Assembly (NCBI GenBank): GCA_027619595.1
Contig: JAQCHP010000008.1
Span: forward strand, 1-64,000
Length of the DNA stretch: 64,000 nt
From: Planctomycetota bacterium
GTDB lineage: Bacteria > Planctomycetota > Planctomycetia > Pirellulales > Pirellulaceae
Reading direction: 5' to 3'
This document shows, piece after piece, positions 2,481 to 44,941 of the stretch. The notes under the pieces were generated by a model. That model ran no database searches. It saw only the letters and a program-made list of their open reading frames with translations, and was not told where the DNA came from. Within the stretch, counting starts at the first letter, position 1; each line of letters opens with the position of its first letter. The position numbers were made by a program, and so were the translations under genes.

Positions 2481-3338
2481 CTACTGGGAGGGAGAGGGGA
2501 GCCATCCGACCAAGTCACGGACACTCACACGCAATTTGGACTGGTTTTTTTCGATTTGGCGGTTCATCCGGTCAACGATTTTTTGCTGCTTGTCTTCCAG
2601 CTTTTCGGCCAGCAGATGCTCAAGCGTACCGCCGATCTCTTCGGCCAAGTCGCCACCAATCTTGCTAATTTTCCGTACGTGATACTCACGCAAATTCAAC
2701 TTGGCCGCGAGTACGCGTGGATGTAACTCAAGGTCTGGCGGAAAGTGGGCCAGATCGAGTTTCGTCCGCAACTCCACTTGGGCCTGCAGTTCCACGACCG
2801 CTTCGGCCTCCATGCTGATACTGTAGAGCTGCACACCGTAATTCCAACGTGATCGTCGCGCCAAGGCATCCACGTGGGCAGTGAAGTCAACATCGAACGT
2901 GATCACTCCGGGCGAAGTCTCCTTGAGATTGTTAATCTGCAGGTGAAGCGAATGTTCCGGGTCGCGCGGTGTAATGCGAAACATCTGCCAAAGTCCGTGG
3001 TTGACCTCCTTCCAGCGACGCTTGGTCTTAACTCTGAGACCATCGTGGTGGACATGGAGCCCATCCCATCGCTTCGCCGTCTTCCCCCATTTGCGAGTAT
3101 CTTCGTAGGTTTCGGGAATATTCTCGAGCAGAAGGCGCCGCACGATTCCCGACAGTCCGTCATCAGGAGCCGCATTTGGGAGCTCCACCGCACTCGACCA
3201 GGGTTCCCGGGGCCAAGTCGGCGACACCCCCTGCGAGGACGGGAATCCCGACGAGGGCGACGCCGCGGGACACGCATTCCAGCCGGACGCCACCACCATC
3301 GAAAGGGCATACAAGGTTAACTCGCATACTTTCCGCAT
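2481..3338 (-). CDS. Secreted protein of unknown function
   Basis: About 285 residues from the ATG at 3338, chosen because it begins MRKVCELTLYALSMVVASG, a plausible signal peptide; the open frame runs further upstream to 3488, but that part does not look like protein. After the signal comes a Pro/Ser-rich stretch, then a domain rich in charged residues and beta-prone segments, and a C-terminal helical part with many Glu/Lys (about residues 215-275). I do not recognise the family. It lies 137 bp upstream of the AlbA_2/ParA pair on the same strand, so co-transcription is possible but not shown. The function is unknown, and export to the periplasm or surface is inferred from the N-terminus alone. 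Confidence 0.6.
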   Translation of the reverse strand: MRKVCELTLYALSMVVASGWNACPAASPSSGFPSSQGVSPTWPREPWSSAVELPNAAPDDGLSGIVRRLLLENIPETYEDTRKWGKTAKRWDGLHVHHDGLRVKTKRRWKEVNHGLWQMFRITPRDPEHSLHLQINNLKETSPGVITFDVDFTAHVDALARRSRWNYGVQLYSISMEAEAVVELQAQVELRTKLDLAHFPPDLELHPRVLAAKLNLREYHVRKISKIGGDLAEEIGGTLEHLLAEKLEDKQQKIVDRMNRQIEKNQSKLRVSVRDLVGWLPSPSQ

Positions 3339-12357: not shown

Positions 12358-13623
12358 ATGCGTTCCCCACTGACTTGCCTCATCGTGTTTTTCTTGCTGC
12401 AATCGCTCGGCAATACCGAGGAAGTCCGCACTGCGGAAGACTGGCCCGATTTTCGTGGTCCGCAGGCGAACGGCCATTCCGCAGCGAAAAATATTCCACT
12501 GCGATGGAGCAACGACGAAGGGATCCGATGGAGAATTCCCCTTCCAGGGCTAGGCTGGTCGACACCGATCGTCTCCCAAGGGACCATTTGGCTAACAACA
12601 TCGCTGGACGAGGGAAAATCACTGCACGCCCTGGCAATCGATAGTGGTTCAGGCAAGATTTTGCACGACATTGCGATCTTCCCCAACAATGAACCGAAAG
12701 AGATTCACGACAAGAACAGCCATGCCTCTCCGTCGGCCGTTGTGGACGGCGACCATGTCTACCTGCATTTTGGAACGTACGGTACCGCATGCGTCGATGC
12801 AACTGGAAACGTCATCTGGCGTCAGAAGCTTGACTACGAGCCCCAACACGGACCTGGGGGCTCGCCAATCATTTTCGAAGATCTCTTGATCCTCAACTGC
12901 GACGGAACGGATTCACAGTTTGTCACGGCTTTGGACAAGCAAAACGGCGAGATCCGCTGGAAAACGTTACGCGCCCATGCCGATCCGGGTCGACTCGATG
13001 GTAGCAAGAGTCCACCGATGGCGTTTTCTACTCCTGTGTTGTGGCACCACCAGGGGACCACACAATTGATCAGTTCAGGAGCCGACCATGTGGCAGGATA
13101 CGACCCTCGTACCGGAGAGGAACTGTGGTGGTCTCAATACGATGGCTATTCCATTGTGCTACGTCCCACAATCCATGAGGACATCGTGTTTGTTTCCTCA
13201 TGTTATAACGACCCCATTCTGTATGCCGTACGTCTCGGGGGCCAAGGTGACGTAACTCAATCGGGAAAGGTCTGGACGCTCGAAAAGGCCGTACCCCATA
13301 GCCCTTCACCGTTGATCGTCGGCCAGGAAATTTACCTCGTGAGCGATAATGGTATCGCCACGTGTCTCGATGCAAAATCGGGCCAACAGCACTGGCAACA
13401 TCGGTTGGGCGGCAACTATTCCGCCTCTCCAATCTATGCCGACGGTCGCATTTATGTCCTCAGCGAAGGGGGTGAAACAACAGTCTTTCAACCGGGATTG
13501 GAATACCTCGAGTTGGCCAAGAATTCTGTCACTGGGCGAACTCTAGCATCGTTCGGCGTCCACGAAAGCTCCCTGCTGCTACGCACCGATACCGAGTTAC
13601 TACGGATCGGAACGGCCCCCTAG
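12358..13623 (+). CDS. Secreted PQQ-type beta-propeller protein
   Basis: 421 residues with a signal peptide (residues 1-about 20, hydrophobic IVFFLLQSL). The motif DWPDFRGPQANG marks the planctomycete 'WPQWRGP' class of PQQ-like propellers, followed by blade motifs such as LHALAIDSGSGKILHD, YLHFGTYGTACVDATGNVIW and TCLDAKSGQQHW. These proteins resemble BamB and quinoprotein dehydrogenases but lack clear PQQ ligands here. The catalytic role is uncertain; protein-protein or carbohydrate interaction in the periplasm is as likely. It lies 153 bp after the Cache kinase gene on the same strand. Confidence 0.85.
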   Translation: MRSPLTCLIVFFLLQSLGNTEEVRTAEDWPDFRGPQANGHSAAKNIPLRWSNDEGIRWRIPLPGLGWSTPIVSQGTIWLTTSLDEGKSLHALAIDSGSGKILHDIAIFPNNEPKEIHDKNSHASPSAVVDGDHVYLHFGTYGTACVDATGNVIWRQKLDYEPQHGPGGSPIIFEDLLILNCDGTDSQFVTALDKQNGEIRWKTLRAHADPGRLDGSKSPPMAFSTPVLWHHQGTTQLISSGADHVAGYDPRTGEELWWSQYDGYSIVLRPTIHEDIVFVSSCYNDPILYAVRLGGQGDVTQSGKVWTLEKAVPHSPSPLIVGQEIYLVSDNGIATCLDAKSGQQHWQHRLGGNYSASPIYADGRIYVLSEGGETTVFQPGLEYLELAKNSVTGRTLASFGVHESSLLLRTDTELLRIGTAP

Positions 13624-16189: not shown

Positions 16190-19100
16190 TTATTGTGACT
16201 TGAACACTGGTGCACCCGAGATCCATTTTGCGGCTTCATCGTCTGGAGGACGGTCAAGCGACAAGAACTGAAACAGATCGATCAGCTCCTGACGTGACAA
16301 TTGCTTCTCGATACCCTCAGGCATGAGCGACACGTCGCTGGTGTGATATTCCTCAATGTCACCGCGGGCGATCGTCTCAACCTTGCCACCTTGTATCTTC
16401 AGAACAACGCGTGTGGCCGACTCTTCGACAGGTACCCCTGTCAGAACACGGCCATCGGACGTGACAAGCACCCGAGCTTGATATGCCGGTCCAATGACCA
16501 GTGACGGATCCAACACGTTTTGTAAGAGTTGTTCCCAACTATTGCGACCGTTTCGAGTAATATCCGGACCGACGTCCGCCCCGACCCCGTAGATTTTATG
16601 ACACGCGGCACAGACACGTTGAAACACTTGCGATCCGCGGACCGGTTCGCCCTCAGTAAGCAACATGTCCTCCTGCAATTCTTGTATCACGCTTTGGCGA
16701 TCTTGTCGCGTTCCGGCGCGAATCTGTCCAAATAACCGGACCGCCAAGTTTCGTACTTCAGGCGAATCGGACGATGCCAATCGTTGCATTTGGTGGAAGT
16801 TGATTTCATCTTTACCAACCACGCCGGACTCAACTGCCTGCAACAACTCGAGGCTCCAGGTCGAACGTTGAGAAAGTACTTCCAACACCGTCGACCGCAA
16901 GGAAGAGTCTAACCGGCCGACACGCGAAATCAGCTCCTTAGCTACCGTCGCACTGGGACTACGCGCCCAGGAAAGCAGCAACTGTTGGCGGAATTCATTA
17001 AGGTCCGTAGGATCCGTCTCCGTACGCTCCAGCCACTTGAGTACGACGTCTTGGGCGGCCGATGTATTCCCACCATACAACAATGAATGAAATGCCAGCA
17101 AACGCTCCTCAGCGTCAATGGAACTATCCAAAGCAACCGCCGACACCTGCGGAACAGAATGGCGATCGCCAACTGCTGCAGAAAGCTGGGATATTTCCGA
17201 CAGAACTTCCTGCGGCAATGTCGTCTTAACAATATCGATGGTCCGCCGAATCGCCTGTACGTCCGACGGCGAAAAACCACCATCGATAATGCGACGTGTC
17301 ACTGCGATCAACTGCCCTTTCTGTTCATCAATCTCTAGATTTCCACTCGATATCGCCGACTGAAGTATGCCCGCATAGGCCTCTCCCGTCGTAGCTGGTG
17401 AATCGAACAGTACATTCATCACCCGCGCCGTGTAGAGTCTTCGTGAGTTGCGTGCCGTGGGAGTGTCCGTTGACGAGCGCAAAAAATCCATCAAGGCTTG
17501 AATCCCCAGCTTCGGATTGCTACTCACAATTTTAAGGACGTTCTGCCATGCGACGGCCGGAACCACCGGATCTTGGCTGCAATATCCCCCTAACATCAGG
17601 AGCGTTTGTATCCGCTCTTGGTCGACAGATGGGTTGCCGGCAGGCGATTTGCTGCCAGTCGTAGGGCTGTGGGAATTGGTCTGCTGGAGCTTTCCGATTG
17701 CAATCGCAAATTGCAAGAGGACTCTTTGAGTCATATCGTCAACGGCGTCGTCTTTTTGGTAACGGGCTAGCTCTTGTCGCCAGCGATCCCAGTCCCAATC
17801 GGTCCGCTCCCCCATCCAGCGAATGCACCAAGCGTCCAGAGTGGAATCGTAGGAGACGCCACTCTTACCGAAGGTCTGTAGCGAAACAATCGAATCTGTG
17901 TCCAATTGTTGACCGCCGGAAAGGATCCAGGCAGACCTTAATCTGTCGAGCCGTGAAGCGTTCGTATTGCGCATTTTTGACCTCACCGCAACAACGGTCG
18001 CCGAATCCGATGGTAGTGCAATCAATCTCTCACCCAACAATCGCCGCGCAGTGTGGCGATGGTATTCGCTGGGACCGTGCAGTGACAACTCCGTAAGTTC
18101 AGAGTCGGTTTGTTTTCCCAAATCTTCCGCTGGCTGTGGCCTCGTGTCACCGAATCGAACGCGATACAGTCGACCTCGCCCGCGTTCGATGCCATCGGGA
18201 TCGGCCAGCGCATCCTGATAACAGTGATAGCGATCGTACCAGTCTAAAACATAGAAATGTCCGTCTGGCCCGGTAAACTGCGCTACGGGCATGAACCACG
18301 GATCGTTTGCTGAGAGAAAATCGGCTAACTGAGGTCGATTTGCTTCACCGACCTTGCGAATGACATCATGCTCATCTTTGTCCCAGGCATCGGCACGCGC
18401 CGGGAATCCCGGGTGAGCGGACCCCTGGTACGACGATCGATCACGGGTGATTCGATCGGCATTGATGCATCCGCCGTGGATGTTCCCCATGAGCAGCATC
18501 CGGCGGTAGTCATTCGGATAAGCATCTGTGTCAAACCACGCCATCCCGCAATAGGCAGCTTGCTGATGAGCATGTTGTACGATGGATGGCAAAGGCCAAA
18601 CGTGCGCCGGATAGGAACCTCCTTGGCGCACATAATAGGCAGATTCCACAAGATGCCACAAATGATCCACAACACAAGCCGATACAAAAAAATCGCCTTC
18701 GTCATTGACCACAAGTCCCCACGGATTGCTGGTCCCTTCGGCAAATACTTGAAACTCACGGGTGATCGGGTGGACTCGCCAGAGGGCACAGGTAAATTCC
18801 CATCCCGGGTGGTCCGTGACAAAATTCGGATTGACCTCCGTATACTGCACATGGCTGTGGTTGAACACACCATTGAGGCCGTAGAGCCAACCGTCGGGCC
18901 CCCACATCAATGAATTCGGTAATTCGTGAGTGTCTGTGCGGCCGAACCCCGTCACGACCACGTCCGTAAAATCCGCTTTCAGATCACCATCGGTGTCCCG
19001 CAAGAAAAGAAGGTCGGGTGCGTTGGCTACCCAAACTCCGCCATATCCGACGACAATACCGGAAGGGATATTGAGCCCCTCCGCAAAAACCGTCACGCGA

Positions 19101-38551: not shown

Positions 38552-38840
38552 CTACAAGCTGAATCGGCGCCGGAATGCCGCACATGCCAAGCCGCCCACT
38601 GTCAGAAGCGCCATGCCGCTTGGCTCAGGAATTAAGCATTCGTGCGTGAAGTATCCGTGGATCTCTATGGGAACCGGCCCCCCGTCAATGTGTAAACTCA
38701 CTTGTTGCGGACAGAAAGGAATTTCGTACATGGCCATCACCGGAATCGGCCCGCCAGTCGGGTCGGGAATGAGCGGAATCAGAATCGGTGGGCTGAATTC
38801 TGGACCAGCCGCGCCAAGCCAATCAAATTGGAATAGGTCA
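38552..38840 (-). pseudogene. Out-of-frame C-terminal segment of the matrixin-like protein, with PEP-CTERM motif
   Basis: In the frame shifted relative to the main gene, this stretch reads on without a stop from about 38840 to 38552. It includes DWLGAAGPEFSPPILIPLIP, IPVMAMYEIPFCPQQVS and IEIHGYFTHECL. It then ends PEPSGMALLTVGGLACAAFRRRF: a PEP motif, a hydrophobic helix and an Arg cluster, the PEP-CTERM sorting signature. No such ending exists in the main frame, which stops at 38779. A one-base deletion near 38838 would join the two. Either a real frameshift or a sequencing error. Confidence 0.6.
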
Positions 38841-40683
38841 TCACGACAAGCTGGTAGTCGCCCGGAGGAAGCAATTTTGCAAATCCGGAATGGGACTCAC
38901 CGACTACGCTGCTCAGTCGTAGCCCAACACCTCCCGCCTGGTCCAACAATCGCAATTCGACAGACTTGATTGGGTACCCACCGGCGGGCACGTCCAAGAC
39001 AAAGTGAACAAGTTGCCAAGTCGGAACATGCAGTGAATGTACAGACGACGCGTTCTGCGAAGTCAGCGTGCCCAGGGCAAGTTCCTGCATCAAGACCGCT
39101 TGATCTCCCAACGCGATGTCAAGCCTATAGTTACTCGACACGGCCGCCGAAAGGCCCGGCGAAGCGACCACACGCAATGTATACCGGCTGTTCGGCGTCA
39201 GGCCCGTCGCTTGCACAATCAAGTCCCTACCATTGTTCACCAATACTTCTGTCGGGTAAACCGCGCCCAGTGAGTCGACTAACTCAAGGGTCTCCACCGA
39301 TAACAATCCATCCACCCCGCGTACCCGAAATGAACCGACCCAAGGCTCGACCGACGCCGGGGTATCGATGCGATAGGCATCAATGTCTGTGACGTTCGAG
39401 ATGCTGGCCGACGCTCGAAATCGCGTCCCAACAGTAAATCCAGGGACAGGCGTCAGAAAATTGGCCGACAATACATCGTCGTCGGTATGGAGTTCGTCGT
39501 TGAAGAGCCCTGCAGATTCTCCATCTTCGGGCAGAAAGATATTCTGTATCTGATCTTGAGTTAAACCTCGTAATCGCCCATCCGTAAACGTATCCAGAGT
39601 ACTTAAGCTCGTTTGCAGCACACCATCTAAAGTTACGGCCAAGACATATTCGCCAATTGCGTAGGGATCTGCAGCCACCGCAGAAATCCGCAGGAAGTAG
39701 TTCCCCTCTTCCGGTGTCGTCCATGTGATTGACAATCGCGATCCGAATACCTCCACCGTCTCGGCAAATGCCATCTGTACCCCAACTTCATCGTGCAGCG
39801 AAATCTGTGGCCGCAAGACACTCACACCGGAGGTACGTAAACTTGCCGTCACTAAGCCGGCGTATGTCACTGGAACCTCAAATTTGAACCAATCGACATC
39901 GTTATTATCGGTCAAGTCACCGTGTAGTATCAGCGGCGTGGCCCCCGTGAACCCGTCGTCGTCGGAGTAGCGAATTTCACTCGCCATTGTGAGTATTCCA
40001 TTCGGATCGTGGGCGTCTTCCAGATCATGGACTCGACTACCGTAGACCAACTGCAGGGCAGCAATATCGTTGGCGGTCGGGACAACCGCCGAAGGAATAA
40101 CCCCTGCTGAGTACAAGGGTGACTGTGGATCCTGATTGTCAGGCAATCCGAAGATATTCCCGGCTTCGTGCAGAGCAACGCGGTAGATTTCGTCGGCGTT
40201 TGCAAATGCAAATTCGCTGTTGAACAGCAAATCGCCGGCCCACGTCCCCGCTACAACGTCCTGCGTCACGGATATTGCGAATACATCCTGCCGCATCGGA
40301 ATGGCGCCCACTCGAATATCGCCAAACCGACCATCTCCCTGTGTAGCTCCGTCGGACCCCAAAGGCTGTCCACCATCCAACACAACGCCGATATCGGCGT
40401 TGGTATATTGCGCCCATGTTTGAAAAGCACGAACTACGTGTTCCTGCCAATTTGACGTACCAGTTATTTGATTAAACTGAGCAAACATCGCACTATTCTG
40501 TCCGGCAATATCGGTACCATCCGGCACAAAACTCAACGTCAAGTCGGCCGTAGCCCCCCAGTCCAAGGGCACAGCAGAAAAGGCGTAACGAGGCTCGAAA
40601 GTCTCGAACCTTCGAACTGCGCGTCGAGTTTTCTTCGTACGACGTTTCCGGCGCAATAGGAAGTTGAATACCTGAGTTATCAT
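38779..40683 (-). CDS. Secreted matrixin-like protein with degenerate zinc site (frameshifted at C-terminus)
   Basis: 634 residues from the ATG at 40683. Residues 27-38 (RFETFEPRYAFS) match the LEPR-type motif found near the N-terminus of large secreted planctomycete proteins. The matrixin-like part (about 50-215) includes AFQTWAQYTNADIGVV. Its metal motif reads HEAGNIFGLPDN: His172 and Glu173 are kept, but the second His is Asn176 and the third Asp182. A later DIAALQLVYG matches the matrixin C-terminal helix. Following domains are beta-rich and C-terminal peptidase-like (PPC) segments (YFLRISAVAADPYAIGEYVL). The main frame stops without a sorting signal; the PEP-CTERM is in the next frame. 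Confidence 0.75.
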   Translation of the reverse strand: MITQVFNFLLRRKRRTKKTRRAVRRFETFEPRYAFSAVPLDWGATADLTLSFVPDGTDIAGQNSAMFAQFNQITGTSNWQEHVVRAFQTWAQYTNADIGVVLDGGQPLGSDGATQGDGRFGDIRVGAIPMRQDVFAISVTQDVVAGTWAGDLLFNSEFAFANADEIYRVALHEAGNIFGLPDNQDPQSPLYSAGVIPSAVVPTANDIAALQLVYGSRVHDLEDAHDPNGILTMASEIRYSDDDGFTGATPLILHGDLTDNNDVDWFKFEVPVTYAGLVTASLRTSGVSVLRPQISLHDEVGVQMAFAETVEVFGSRLSITWTTPEEGNYFLRISAVAADPYAIGEYVLAVTLDGVLQTSLSTLDTFTDGRLRGLTQDQIQNIFLPEDGESAGLFNDELHTDDDVLSANFLTPVPGFTVGTRFRASASISNVTDIDAYRIDTPASVEPWVGSFRVRGVDGLLSVETLELVDSLGAVYPTEVLVNNGRDLIVQATGLTPNSRYTLRVVASPGLSAAVSSNYRLDIALGDQAVLMQELALGTLTSQNASSVHSLHVPTWQLVHFVLDVPAGGYPIKSVELRLLDQAGGVGLRLSSVVGESHSGFAKLLPPGDYQLVVMTYSNLIGLARLVQNSAHRF

Positions 40684-40790
40684 CACCGACACTCCAAATT
40701 GCGCCACCAAACGCCGGCCAAATCACCAGCCTGTTCGCCCCATCGCATCGAGTCACAAGTTGCGTTACGAAACTACGTTTTCAGGCAGCA

Positions 40791-42734
40791 CTAACTTGCC
40801 GTAAGGTCCGCTACAGGACGCTGCAGCACGGCCGCTGCCCGTAAAACTTCCTGAAATTCAGGGTCCTCTCGCATTGGTTCTAGGTCTGGATCACGGGGCA
40901 CAAGCCGCAACCACGAATTGTCCTGCCGCAGAGTTTCTGCCAAGAAAGCCACCGCATTGCGTCGATAGGATGCCAAAACGGTTTCGTCAATTTCGCCATG
41001 GTCTGTTCGGGAAAGTTGAGCATAAATACAGGCGACTTGGTAGCTCACCGCTGGTGTGCGGGAGGCTTGTATCGCAAGCTTCGCATCGCGAATCGCCGGT
41101 TCATGTACTCCACGACGCGCCTGCAACACACCACGCCCCGCCAAGGCGGTCGCGTTTTGAGGATCCAGCTTTAACATGTGATCCAATACTGCCAAGGCGG
41201 CTTCGGCGTCTCGCAATTCGTCGGCCAACAGGTGTGCCAGGTTCTGCAACAATCTCCGCGAATGAGGATAGAGTTTTCTCGCCTCTTCAAGATCCCGCCG
41301 CGCGCCTGCTGGGTCCTCGGGTAACCGGGCCAAACCGCGCGAAATCCACCCTTCTTCGTCGGTGGGCCTGAGTGACAATCCCCGTTCGCGATCTTCTTCC
41401 GCACGATCCAATTTGCCTAATTGCCGCCAGCACCGCGCACGTAACAACAACCAGCGTCCGTCCTCATCCCCTTCCGCTTTGTCAATGGCCTGCGTTAAAT
41501 CGGCAACAGCCTCGACAACATGCTTCTGTTCGTAACGGGACAAGGCCCGATTCACGTGAGAGTGCAAGTGGTTCGGACGTTGGCGCAATACCTCACTAAA
41601 GTCATCCTCTGCACCGTCTGCGTTCTTGGCCTGTAAACGCGCGATTCCTCGAAAGAAATAGATCTGGTACGGAGCGTTTACTTGCGGCCACAGCGCGATA
41701 CATCGCGTATAGCACAGTTCGGCGTCATGCAACTGCCCTCGCGACGCATAGGCGTGTCCTAACAGCAACCAGGTATCAACGTCCTTAGGACGCTCCTGTG
41801 ACAACGCTTCAGCAAGGGGTATCGCCTGTTCATATTTCTCCTGACCTACCAATCGGACGGACAATAAATAGCGATCCAGCCATTCCTTGGGTAGCACGGA
41901 TTGCACCGCCGTGTCGTTGTCGTCTCTTCCGTTCGTCGTCTCTTCGGATCCGTCTGGCAATCCCAAGGTATGCAAATCTTGTTTCTGTAGATCAAAGACC
42001 ACCGACCGCTGCATTGGGTCGTGCTGCGACAAAAGCTGTCCGCGCTGATTGAACTGCAAAGCCAATTCGACATGTTTACTCGACTCTTCACCCTGAGTTT
42101 GTTGAGTCATCCGTGCCTGGTCGGACGCTAACAAATACAGAATCTCTCGGATCGACTCCCGGACGGCGACGCGCTCACTCTCGGGCAAGTCAACAAAAGG
42201 GTGCTGCGCTTCCCAATCATCTCGGCCGGCATTCCACAGCTTAAGAGCCTGCTGAGCAACATCAATTCCCTCTCGACGAATCTCGACATCGCTGCCGAGC
42301 AAACTCAATTGGGAACTCGCTTCACGAGCGACATTTTGAAAAACTCCGAACGTTTGCAACGCCGAATAGCGTGCCAACTGTTGCGAACGCACGCCCAACA
42401 ACGCCCCGAGACAAATAATGAACATCCCCGCAACCGTAGACAAACTTGCCATGGATGTCGCTCGCGGATGTCGCCGCCACCACTTTTTAAGTCGCTCGGT
42501 TAACGACGTATTGGGCGCATATCGCATCGGCAAGTCACGGACGTGACAGTCCAGATCCTCCAAGAGTTCGTGTGCTGTTTGATATCGCTGGTCGGGAAGC
42601 GGCGCGAGACATCGATTCACGATCGATTCAATCGATCGACTCAAACTGGCGTCACGCGCGCAGAGATGGGACGACAGCACGATCTCGCACCATTCCCGGA
42701 ATCGTACTTTCCGGCAATCCATCCGGCGCATCAA
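40791..42734 (-). CDS. C-terminal part of a split Ser/Thr kinase: kinase tail, membrane segment, TPR repeats
   Basis: 647 open codons. The usable part starts about residue 30 with the end of a kinase C-lobe (ASLSRSIESIVNRCLAPLPD, then RYQTAHELLEDL and RYAPNTSLTERLKKWWRRHPR, a planctomycete kinase hallmark). A transmembrane helix follows (VAGMFIICLGALLGVRS, about 100-118), and then TPR-like repeats (DVDTWLLLGHAYASRGQLHD, DLTQAIDKAEGDEDGRWLLL, DEEGWISRGLARLPEDPAGA). The first ~30 codons shadow the upstream kinase gene; the two frames join at about 42655, so this and the entry at 42652 are one gene. Confidence 0.85.
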   Translation of the reverse strand: MMRRMDCRKVRFREWCEIVLSSHLCARDASLSRSIESIVNRCLAPLPDQRYQTAHELLEDLDCHVRDLPMRYAPNTSLTERLKKWWRRHPRATSMASLSTVAGMFIICLGALLGVRSQQLARYSALQTFGVFQNVAREASSQLSLLGSDVEIRREGIDVAQQALKLWNAGRDDWEAQHPFVDLPESERVAVRESIREILYLLASDQARMTQQTQGEESSKHVELALQFNQRGQLLSQHDPMQRSVVFDLQKQDLHTLGLPDGSEETTNGRDDNDTAVQSVLPKEWLDRYLLSVRLVGQEKYEQAIPLAEALSQERPKDVDTWLLLGHAYASRGQLHDAELCYTRCIALWPQVNAPYQIYFFRGIARLQAKNADGAEDDFSEVLRQRPNHLHSHVNRALSRYEQKHVVEAVADLTQAIDKAEGDEDGRWLLLRARCWRQLGKLDRAEEDRERGLSLRPTDEEGWISRGLARLPEDPAGARRDLEEARKLYPHSRRLLQNLAHLLADELRDAEAALAVLDHMLKLDPQNATALAGRGVLQARRGVHEPAIRDAKLAIQASRTPAVSYQVACIYAQLSRTDHGEIDETVLASYRRNAVAFLAETLRQDNSWLRLVPRDPDLEPMREDPEFQEVLRAAAVLQRPVADLTAS

Positions 42735-43998
42735 AGGGAAGCTCGCCCGTCAACATCTGGAACAAGAGAACCCCCAACGAGTAGATGTCACTTCGTGCAT
42801 CGACCGAACCGGACCGCAAGATCGCACGCAGATGCTCCGGTGACATGTAGGGCAGTGTCCCTCCCACAAATTTGTTTCCCGTATCGTCGGATTGGTCATC
42901 CGCCAAATTAAAATCCAGAATCATCGGTAAGCCCTCATCAGTAATGAGGATATTGGCCGGCTTGAGGTCACGGTGCAAAATCCCTCTTTCGTGAGCGTGT
43001 GCCAGCCCGTCAGCAAGGCAGGCGGCGTACCACGAACATGTCGACTCATGCGATAGGCTACGTAAATGTTTGCTCGCGTCCGCTTCGCGATGGGACGTGT
43101 CGGACGAGGACGACCGAATGCCTGCCCGAGCGATAACCGGTTCCATGCTCCGTGATACATCATGGAGATAAGTGACGATTTCTGCTCCCGTTCCTAGCCG
43201 CGCAGACGGACCGCGCGATCGTAGATACTCCGATAAAGTTACCGTCCCTAGATAGGGCATGCACACCATTTGATAGGGTGAATTTTGGTGTACTGAATAA
43301 ACCGGCACAACATGCGTGTGTTGCAGTCGAGCCAACCGATCGGACTCACGCCATACACTCGTGGTTACTTTGACAACAACGAGCCGTCCCGCCAACGACC
43401 TCTGTCTCGCCAAATAGACGCGGCCGAATTTCCCCTCGCCCAACTGCTGCACAATTTCGAAATCCGCTACCAGCTGACCCGGCATGAGTAGATTGGGAAT
43501 CAACAGTCGTTGCTGACCGTCAACGGCCGTGGAACCTCGCAGCGCTGTTTCCACCGCGAAAGCCGGGTGAGTCTCGGAGGGAACGGTGCGTGGCGACAAT
43601 TGAGACTTGTGCCCTGCATCCCCGACGTGCGTCCGCGGCCAATTGCTGGTGTCAATCCCGTACTTGCTTGTGTACGTTGCTGGTTCGACGGCATCGCCCC
43701 GCAGACAACGTAACCGGTATTCTTCTAAGGCGACCTGCTGCAAGACGCGCGGCCGATTCAGGAGATCCGAGAAGTGGCTTCGATACGATTCTAACGAGAC
43801 AAGTGAACTGTCTCGCTGCCAATTCTTCTCAAAGTCAACGCACAACAATTCACAACAGATCGACTCATAATCAGGGTGTTCCCGAGGAGGGAAGAAAGCG
43901 TCAACGGACACCGAACCAGCACACGCATAAGCGGACTCGTACGCGTCGACGATATCGTCGAGTGACGCAACATGCAATGAATCAGTTGGACTGGCCAT
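42652..43998 (-). CDS. N-terminal part of a split Ser/Thr protein kinase
   Basis: 448 residues, ATG at 43998, overlapping the sigma-factor stop by 17 bp. An N-terminal region of about 170 residues of unknown fold precedes the kinase domain: QQLGEGKFGRVYLA, the Lys of VVVKVT, HRDLKPANILI, DFNLADD (DFN in place of DFG, known in this subgroup) and SPEHLRA. It stops early in the C-lobe at PSLRA, followed by TGA in a CGCGCGC run (42655-42661). The remainder continues in another frame (see 40791). With the frame restored the protein would be about 1,060 residues: kinase, membrane helix, TPR. Confidence 0.85.
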   Translation of the reverse strand: MASPTDSLHVASLDDIVDAYESAYACAGSVSVDAFFPPREHPDYESICCELLCVDFEKNWQRDSSLVSLESYRSHFSDLLNRPRVLQQVALEEYRLRCLRGDAVEPATYTSKYGIDTSNWPRTHVGDAGHKSQLSPRTVPSETHPAFAVETALRGSTAVDGQQRLLIPNLLMPGQLVADFEIVQQLGEGKFGRVYLARQRSLAGRLVVVKVTTSVWRESDRLARLQHTHVVPVYSVHQNSPYQMVCMPYLGTVTLSEYLRSRGPSARLGTGAEIVTYLHDVSRSMEPVIARAGIRSSSSDTSHREADASKHLRSLSHESTCSWYAACLADGLAHAHERGILHRDLKPANILITDEGLPMILDFNLADDQSDDTGNKFVGGTLPYMSPEHLRAILRSGSVDARSDIYSLGVLLFQMLTGELPFDAPDGLPESTIPGMVRDRAVVPSLRA

Positions 43999-44593
43999 CG
44001 ATCAACCCACTTAGTCTTTCTCGAACCCCTTGCAACACACGCTCAACCGTCCGTTTGGAACGCTCGGTAAGCGTAGCGATATCTTCCACGCGGTGTCCGT
44101 CAATCCGAAGCTCAATCATACGACGCTGCACTTCGGGTATCTCACCGAGCACCGATTCAATAACCATTTGCAATGCCGAATAGGCGATTTCATCCCCTCC
44201 CATCCCCTGAGCCACCTCGGCCAACTCCGTCCCCCCCACGGTGCGTTTCACATCACATTTCTGAGCCCGATGATGGACGGCCAATCCGCGAATTTTATTG
44301 AGTGCCAAAACCAACAGAAGCTGCCATAACTCATCGCCCGGTGGCACATCGTACAGCCCCTTCTGTGCACGCCGGAAAAAAGTCCTAAAGACCGACTGGA
44401 CAACGTCCTCGGCATCAAATCGAGTCGCCATCTGAGGGGAAGTCTGGGACGACGCCAATGCCTGAAGGCGAGCCGCGTAGCGAAGGTAAAGTCGCGTCGC
44501 AGCGTCTTCTTCACCCGCCCGGAATCGCCGTAACAGCGAGTGGTCGGTGCGAGATTCAACGTCCTTCGGCTGCATGTTTCGCTCGCTGTTCAT
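43982..44593 (-). CDS. ECF-type RNA polymerase sigma factor
   Basis: 203 residues from the ATG at 44593, preceded by GAGGGGAAC; the frame extends to a TTG at 44638. Sigma region 2 includes SLLRRFRAGEEDAATRLYLRY and FDAEDVVQSVFRTFFRRAQ; region 4 includes RRMIELRIDGHRVEDIATL and SKRTVERVLQGVRERL, a DNA-binding helix-turn-helix. ECF sigma factors paired with Ser/Thr kinase-TPR genes are common in planctomycetes, where phosphorylation may replace anti-sigma control. It overlaps the downstream kinase gene, so they are surely co-transcribed. Confidence 0.92.
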   Translation of the reverse strand: MNSERNMQPKDVESRTDHSLLRRFRAGEEDAATRLYLRYAARLQALASSQTSPQMATRFDAEDVVQSVFRTFFRRAQKGLYDVPPGDELWQLLLVLALNKIRGLAVHHRAQKCDVKRTVGGTELAEVAQGMGGDEIAYSALQMVIESVLGEIPEVQRRMIELRIDGHRVEDIATLTERSKRTVERVLQGVRERLSGLIDGQSN

Positions 44594-44941
44594 TGTTCCC
44601 CTCTTTGAGGAGTCAAATTCCGACCGCTCGTCCGCCAAAGAAAATCCATTATACGCGAAGCCTCACCTAGCCCACCGAAAAGAAGGCCGGCCCGGGTTTA
44701 TCTAAATTACGCATAGCATTAACTTCGCCAACAGACCTATTTACCTAAATTCACAATAGGGTCCCCGCCCGCTTTCGGCTTGGAGAACGGTGCCTCGAAG
44801 CTACGAACCGCACAGTAACAATTTTTTTGGAAAAATCTTCTGGAACAATTCTTTGGCGGTACTTGGCATCTTAATCAACTCTTGACAATACGACGACTCG
44901 CACTCGGGTCATTCCGCTACTGCCACCTGGGACCACGACAC
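44594..44941. other. Divergent intergenic region of about 350 bp
   Basis: Lies between the sigma factor (minus) and the dockerin/PEP-CTERM gene (plus). AT-rich near 44700-44760 and 44820-44860. No gene or repeat was recognised. Confidence 0.4.

Follow-up and report, generated by a model that had tools for sequence, protein, structure and literature searches.

On the minus strand of the window (the whole stretch of 64,000 nucleotides that was analysed), the gene of an ECF sigma factor is followed by a frame encoding a protein kinase, which starts with an ATG at 43998 and ends, with ...VVPSLRA as the last residues of its product, at a TGA at 42654-42652. A second frame on the same strand, free of stops from 42749 to its own stop at 40793-40791, carries ASLSRSIESIVNRC... 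and TPRs, and its offset relative to the kinase frame is +1 or, equivalently, -2. Right before the TGA of the kinase frame stands a CGCGCGC run. The frames, their coordinates, the run at 42655-42661 and the PSLRA-TGA end had all been described correctly in the earlier note on this DNA. The features are as follows.

43982..44638, minus strand: ECF sigma factor (Sigma70_ECF, PF07638) with FDAEDVVQSVFRTFF; its 3' end and the start of the kinase frame share 17 bases
42652..43998, minus strand: kinase half, 448 aa, with an N-terminal region and a protein kinase domain that follows the Pfam model to about position 201 of its 263; K210, D344, N349 and D362 are kept
42655..42661: CGCGCGC run before the TGA at 42652-42654; probable indel site, within a homology interval of about 42653-42679
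40791..42749, minus strand: second frame, stop-free until 40793, encoding the last part of the kinase C-lobe (beginning near 42650), a membrane helix and TPRs
42390..42446, minus strand: predicted membrane helix SLSTVAGMFIICLGALLGV, 19 residues, mean Kyte-Doolittle value 2.1

Pfam models place Pkinase in the kinase frame and TPRs in the second frame, and the domain in the kinase half stops at model position 201 of 263, whereas it reaches position 253 in an intact relative (L036). The end of the C-lobe was assigned to the second half by alignment with relatives; given only the first 43 residues of that half, Pfam did not recognise it. The catalytic Lys (K210), the HRD Asp (D344), the Asn (N349) and the DFG-type Asp (D362) are all retained in the kinase half and are conserved in 24, 23, 24 and 24 of 24 relatives, respectively. 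The DFG motif reads DFN in the window and in 20 of the 24 relatives (with H in three and G in one as the last letter), a conserved trait of this kinase family (L011-L044). The residues expected of an active Hanks-type kinase can thus be read in the sequence, while a complete C-lobe in a single frame is missing from the window. The second frame encodes a C-lobe Arg that is conserved in all 25 rows of the alignment, the window included. With the catalytic residues undamaged in the first half and this Arg present in the second, neither half looks decayed. Homology (best pair of matches) confines the break to about 42679-42653, an interval that contains the CGCGCGC run at 42655-42661, the probable site of the indel. 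The next gene downstream (38779-40710, minus strand) encodes a secreted-looking protein with the sequence HEAGNIFGLPD, which we take to resemble the zinc motif of metalloproteases, except that N replaces the second H.

In relatives, the two halves belong to one gene. A first search of 98 genomes, including the window's own, found matches at E <= 1e-60 to the kinase half in 16 of the 97 others and to the second half in 14, giving 33 loci that represent 24 distinct genes (nine loci repeat a gene). When one sequence for each of these 24 genes was aligned with the two window halves joined by an X, the open frame was found to continue across the junction in every one of the relatives (24/24), with residues aligning on both sides, and the distance from GELPF to ESIV was 34-45 residues in the relatives (41 in 14 of them) and 39 in the window, counting the X as one residue. 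A second set, sharing some members with the first, comprised 80 loci (L185-L264), which were the best 80 of 151 in an alignment query, and includes the cultured Lacipirellula limnantheis (L194), Bythopirellula polymerisocia, Botrimarina colliarenosi, Adhaeretor mobilis and Limnoglobus roseus. Matches to both window halves lie in the same open frame in 79 of these best 80 loci; in the 80th (L236), the match is followed by only 58 residues before the contig stops, leaving 79 loci that could be evaluated. In six of the 79 (L193, L197, L205, L226, L228 and L251) the match to the second half covers its first 75 to 99 residues only, i.e. the end of the C-lobe and the membrane region rather than the TPRs, and in five others (L209, L215, L222, L235 and L264) it starts beyond residue 258, still in the same open frame.

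A split gene was found in none of the 79 evaluable loci (of the best 80 of 151) and in none of the 24 distinct relatives aligned. In all, 75 distinct ORFs, one from each of 75 of the 80 loci, match both halves of the window collinearly across its two frames, which puts the split beyond chance. The kinase and TPR regions thus show both homology and collinearity with single ORFs of the kinase-TM-TPR family; the one uninterrupted frame present in 79/79 evaluable loci is absent from the window. Judged by homology, the kinase frame and the second frame are one planctomycete gene, since an open frame spans the junction in 24/24 relatives and both halves share a frame in 79/80 loci. The view put forward in the earlier note, that a small indel located at the CG run or close to it has cut a single kinase-TM-TPR gene, is therefore borne out. 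The best match to the kinase half in the 97 related genomes is 43% identical, none is reported above 47%, and no close relative suited to a substitution-rate test was found among them. A scan of genome contigs with a single protein returned no relative.

The gene itself is of an ordinary, known kind of planctomycete membrane kinase. Planctomycete Ser/Thr kinases with C-terminal TPR arrays are described in PMC11032199, and the window shares with them a Pkinase domain, one membrane helix and then TPRs, which relatives carry in one frame. It differs from them in that the two frames are separated by one indel.

An ECF gene lies at most 400 bp upstream of the kinase gene in 63 of the best 80 of 151 loci, and an ECF match stands beside 21 of the 24 genes of the first set, so that the neighbourhood pointed out in the earlier note is a conserved one. 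Four of the 17 other loci (L202, L212, L246 and L251) begin less than 250 bases from a contig end and could not show an ECF gene, in L232 the ECF match is about 2.5 kb upstream, and in the remaining 12 of these 17 none was found upstream. The ECF gene and the kinase gene form an operon-like pair.

The pair resembles ECF43, ECF59 and former ECF60 (EcfP type), in which, according to PMC8103513, the ECF gene adjoins a Ser/Thr kinase gene, much as the window's ECF gene lies directly upstream of the kinase. The same paper describes kinase-activated ECFs of the EcfP type as being without the acidic DAED motif; EcfP has STTA at this position and phosphorylation is needed to restore the charge (PMC8103513). 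The ECF of the window, in contrast to EcfP (former ECF60), retains an acidic DAED rather than an uncharged, Ser/Thr-bearing replacement, and most of the 66 ECFs that were read from the 80 loci have an acidic variant at these four letters, DPED (28 ECFs) and DAED (six) being examples. An EcfP-type mechanism is not expected here because of these two observations. If the kinase acts on the ECF, our guess would be that it phosphorylates another site of the sigma factor.

Whether the break reflects biology has to be considered against the assembly from which it comes, a draft of 5.18 Mb in 281 contigs that is 96.4% complete. In a survey, 706 kb of this assembly (40 stretches plus the window) were compared with ORFs of relatives, and a place was scored as split when a single query ORF had collinear matches in two different frames. 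Among 160 homologous stretches (183 kb), the window included, there were six distinct split places (from seven bins, two of which both belong to the window), the five others being three clear and two weak cases.

L085 (G000:C74:1-20000), 16842-16869, plus strand: clear; dehydrogenase E1 fusion, broken at position 92 of the 124 in the Transketolase_C model
L183 (G000:C250:1-20000), 2703-2715, minus strand: clear; proline dehydrogenase, split between Pro_dh model positions 231 and 234
L088 (G000:C74:60001-80000), near 2545, minus strand: clear; second kinase gene, with a run of nine G (G9) at the break
L091, near 17684: weak; the query ORF has no Pfam match and the assembly's own stretch contains a stop
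L097, near 12735-12827: weak; short matches to one query having only a PEP-CTERM match

No split was found in 219 homologous stretches (244 kb) of two single-contig relatives, of which 2.0 Mb were taken, nor in 251 stretches (348 kb) of the other planctomycete loci, i.e. the 80 loci, a control that cannot count as an independent random sample, having been chosen as relatives of the split kinase gene and sharing contigs with some genomes of the first search. Because it had been selected for being split, the window was excluded from the main tests. Without it, the excess over the pooled controls gave one-sided Fisher p values of 0.016 for the three clear cases (3/159) and 0.001 for all five (5/159). 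When only the two single-contig genomes served as controls, p was 0.074 for the clear cases, which is not significant, and 0.013 for all five. An earlier, smaller survey had found four places in 94 stretches of the same assembly vs 0/165, 0/102 and 0/61.

The evidence behind each place varies. The splits in L085 and L183 are each supported by one relative ORF and that in L088 by two, plus five ORFs of the same assembly. The relative of the dehydrogenase gene (L126) reaches Transketolase_C position 109 and continues with lipoyl and ACP-synthase-III domains in one ORF of 1163 aa; this E1/lipoyl/ACP-synthase-III-like domain order is itself an unusual fusion. The second Pro_dh piece of L183 scores 22.3 bits, below the cut-off of 27. 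A further candidate, an own-to-own match at 8813-8896 of L091, was dropped as a split because its downstream piece starts with its own ATG and reads as a separate gene. Runs of at least eight identical bases numbered 49 in the 706 kb of the assembly vs 40 in the 2.0 Mb of the two relatives. In-frame stops were found at three places in the assembly vs two and one in the controls, several of them poorly aligned; of the three, one lies in a repeat protein and two are weakly aligned, and they may leave room for real pseudogenes. One in-frame stop, NGNDGDDSI*GDDGND, was seen in L089 (G000:C74:80001-100000, about 3315, minus strand), in a protein that is presumably Ca-binding-repeat-like.

The excess of frame breaks elsewhere in the assembly points to indel error, although genome decay could also produce such an excess. 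The two frames of the window are thus probably the product of a single sequencing or assembly indel in the draft, one that would have fallen in or beside CGCGCGC. In the cell the gene would then probably be intact and encode a single protein of about 1,070 residues, a membrane-anchored Ser/Thr kinase with a cytoplasmic kinase domain, one membrane helix and then TPRs, which by analogy with the published planctomycete kinases would be in the periplasm. Such an error is the likelier cause, because other frame breaks occur in unrelated genes of the assembly. Counted against it is the finding that simple repeats do not mark all of the other clear splits, the place in L085 having no long run. Of the interpretation offered in the earlier note, an interrupted kinase gene next to an ECF gene therefore stands, but the proposal that a broken kinase would alter sigma control finds no support, the ECF having kept its DAED and the other frame breaks favouring error.

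A real and recent frameshift in this strain or population is the strongest competitor, though a rather unlikely one. Short dinucleotide repeats can slip in vivo, and slippage in the short CG repeat would have made the gene a young pseudogene encoding a truncated kinase that lacks its membrane helix and TPRs as well as the last part of the C-lobe. If the split were real, this truncated kinase would probably be inactive. That both frames are otherwise intact is what a very recent event would leave behind, and genome decay could account for the clear splits in three other genes. However, several single frame breaks accompanied by few clear nonsense changes fit indel error in a draft at least as well, and a real frameshift is here judged from one assembly.

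Programmed frameshifting, which had been named as an alternative in the earlier note, is very unlikely. In this scheme a P-site tRNA on GCG would re-pair two bases back on an identical GCG with UGA in the A site, and both the short kinase and the full-length fusion would be made. CTG CGC GCG TGA does permit perfect -2 re-pairing, and a predicted 8-bp stem-loop starts 13 nt past the TGA. The frame offset and the possible re-pairing site recall the -2 frameshifting documented for phage Mu and arteriviruses in PMC5009743, but here the split is not conserved (0/79 evaluable relatives among the best 80 of 151) and the downstream structure is not unusually stable. Shuffled versions of the 62 nt that follow the stop fold just as well (z 0.26; 116/200 at least as stable), 333/2000 synonymous recodings of the following 66 nt reach at least the observed stability (-18.1 kcal/mol, against a mean of -14.4 with an sd of 3.8), and no AGGAGG-like stimulator was seen by eye just upstream. 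There is similarly very little to recommend a CG run that is real and used as a switch, whether by -2 slippage of the GCG-decoding tRNA at the UGA or by variation in run length; if true, the gene next to the ECF gene would alternately yield a truncated, soluble kinase and the complete membrane-bound one. Stable fission into a kinase and a membrane-TPR protein made from two starts is scarcely credible either, for although candidate in-frame starts exist past the junction (e.g. ATG at 42527 and 42452), none of 24 relatives has Met in those two columns (by eye), the break lies within the C-lobe of the kinase and not at a domain boundary, and no split occurs in the 79 evaluable loci of the best 80 of 151.

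Since a dehydrogenase fusion, a proline dehydrogenase and a second kinase gene are split in the same assembly, the main lesson of the split kinase gene is one of caution: without the reads, a gene that is broken between frames in this draft should not be taken for real biology. The intact family is of moderate interest and of a known kind, a widespread ECF-kinase-TPR pair in planctomycetes.
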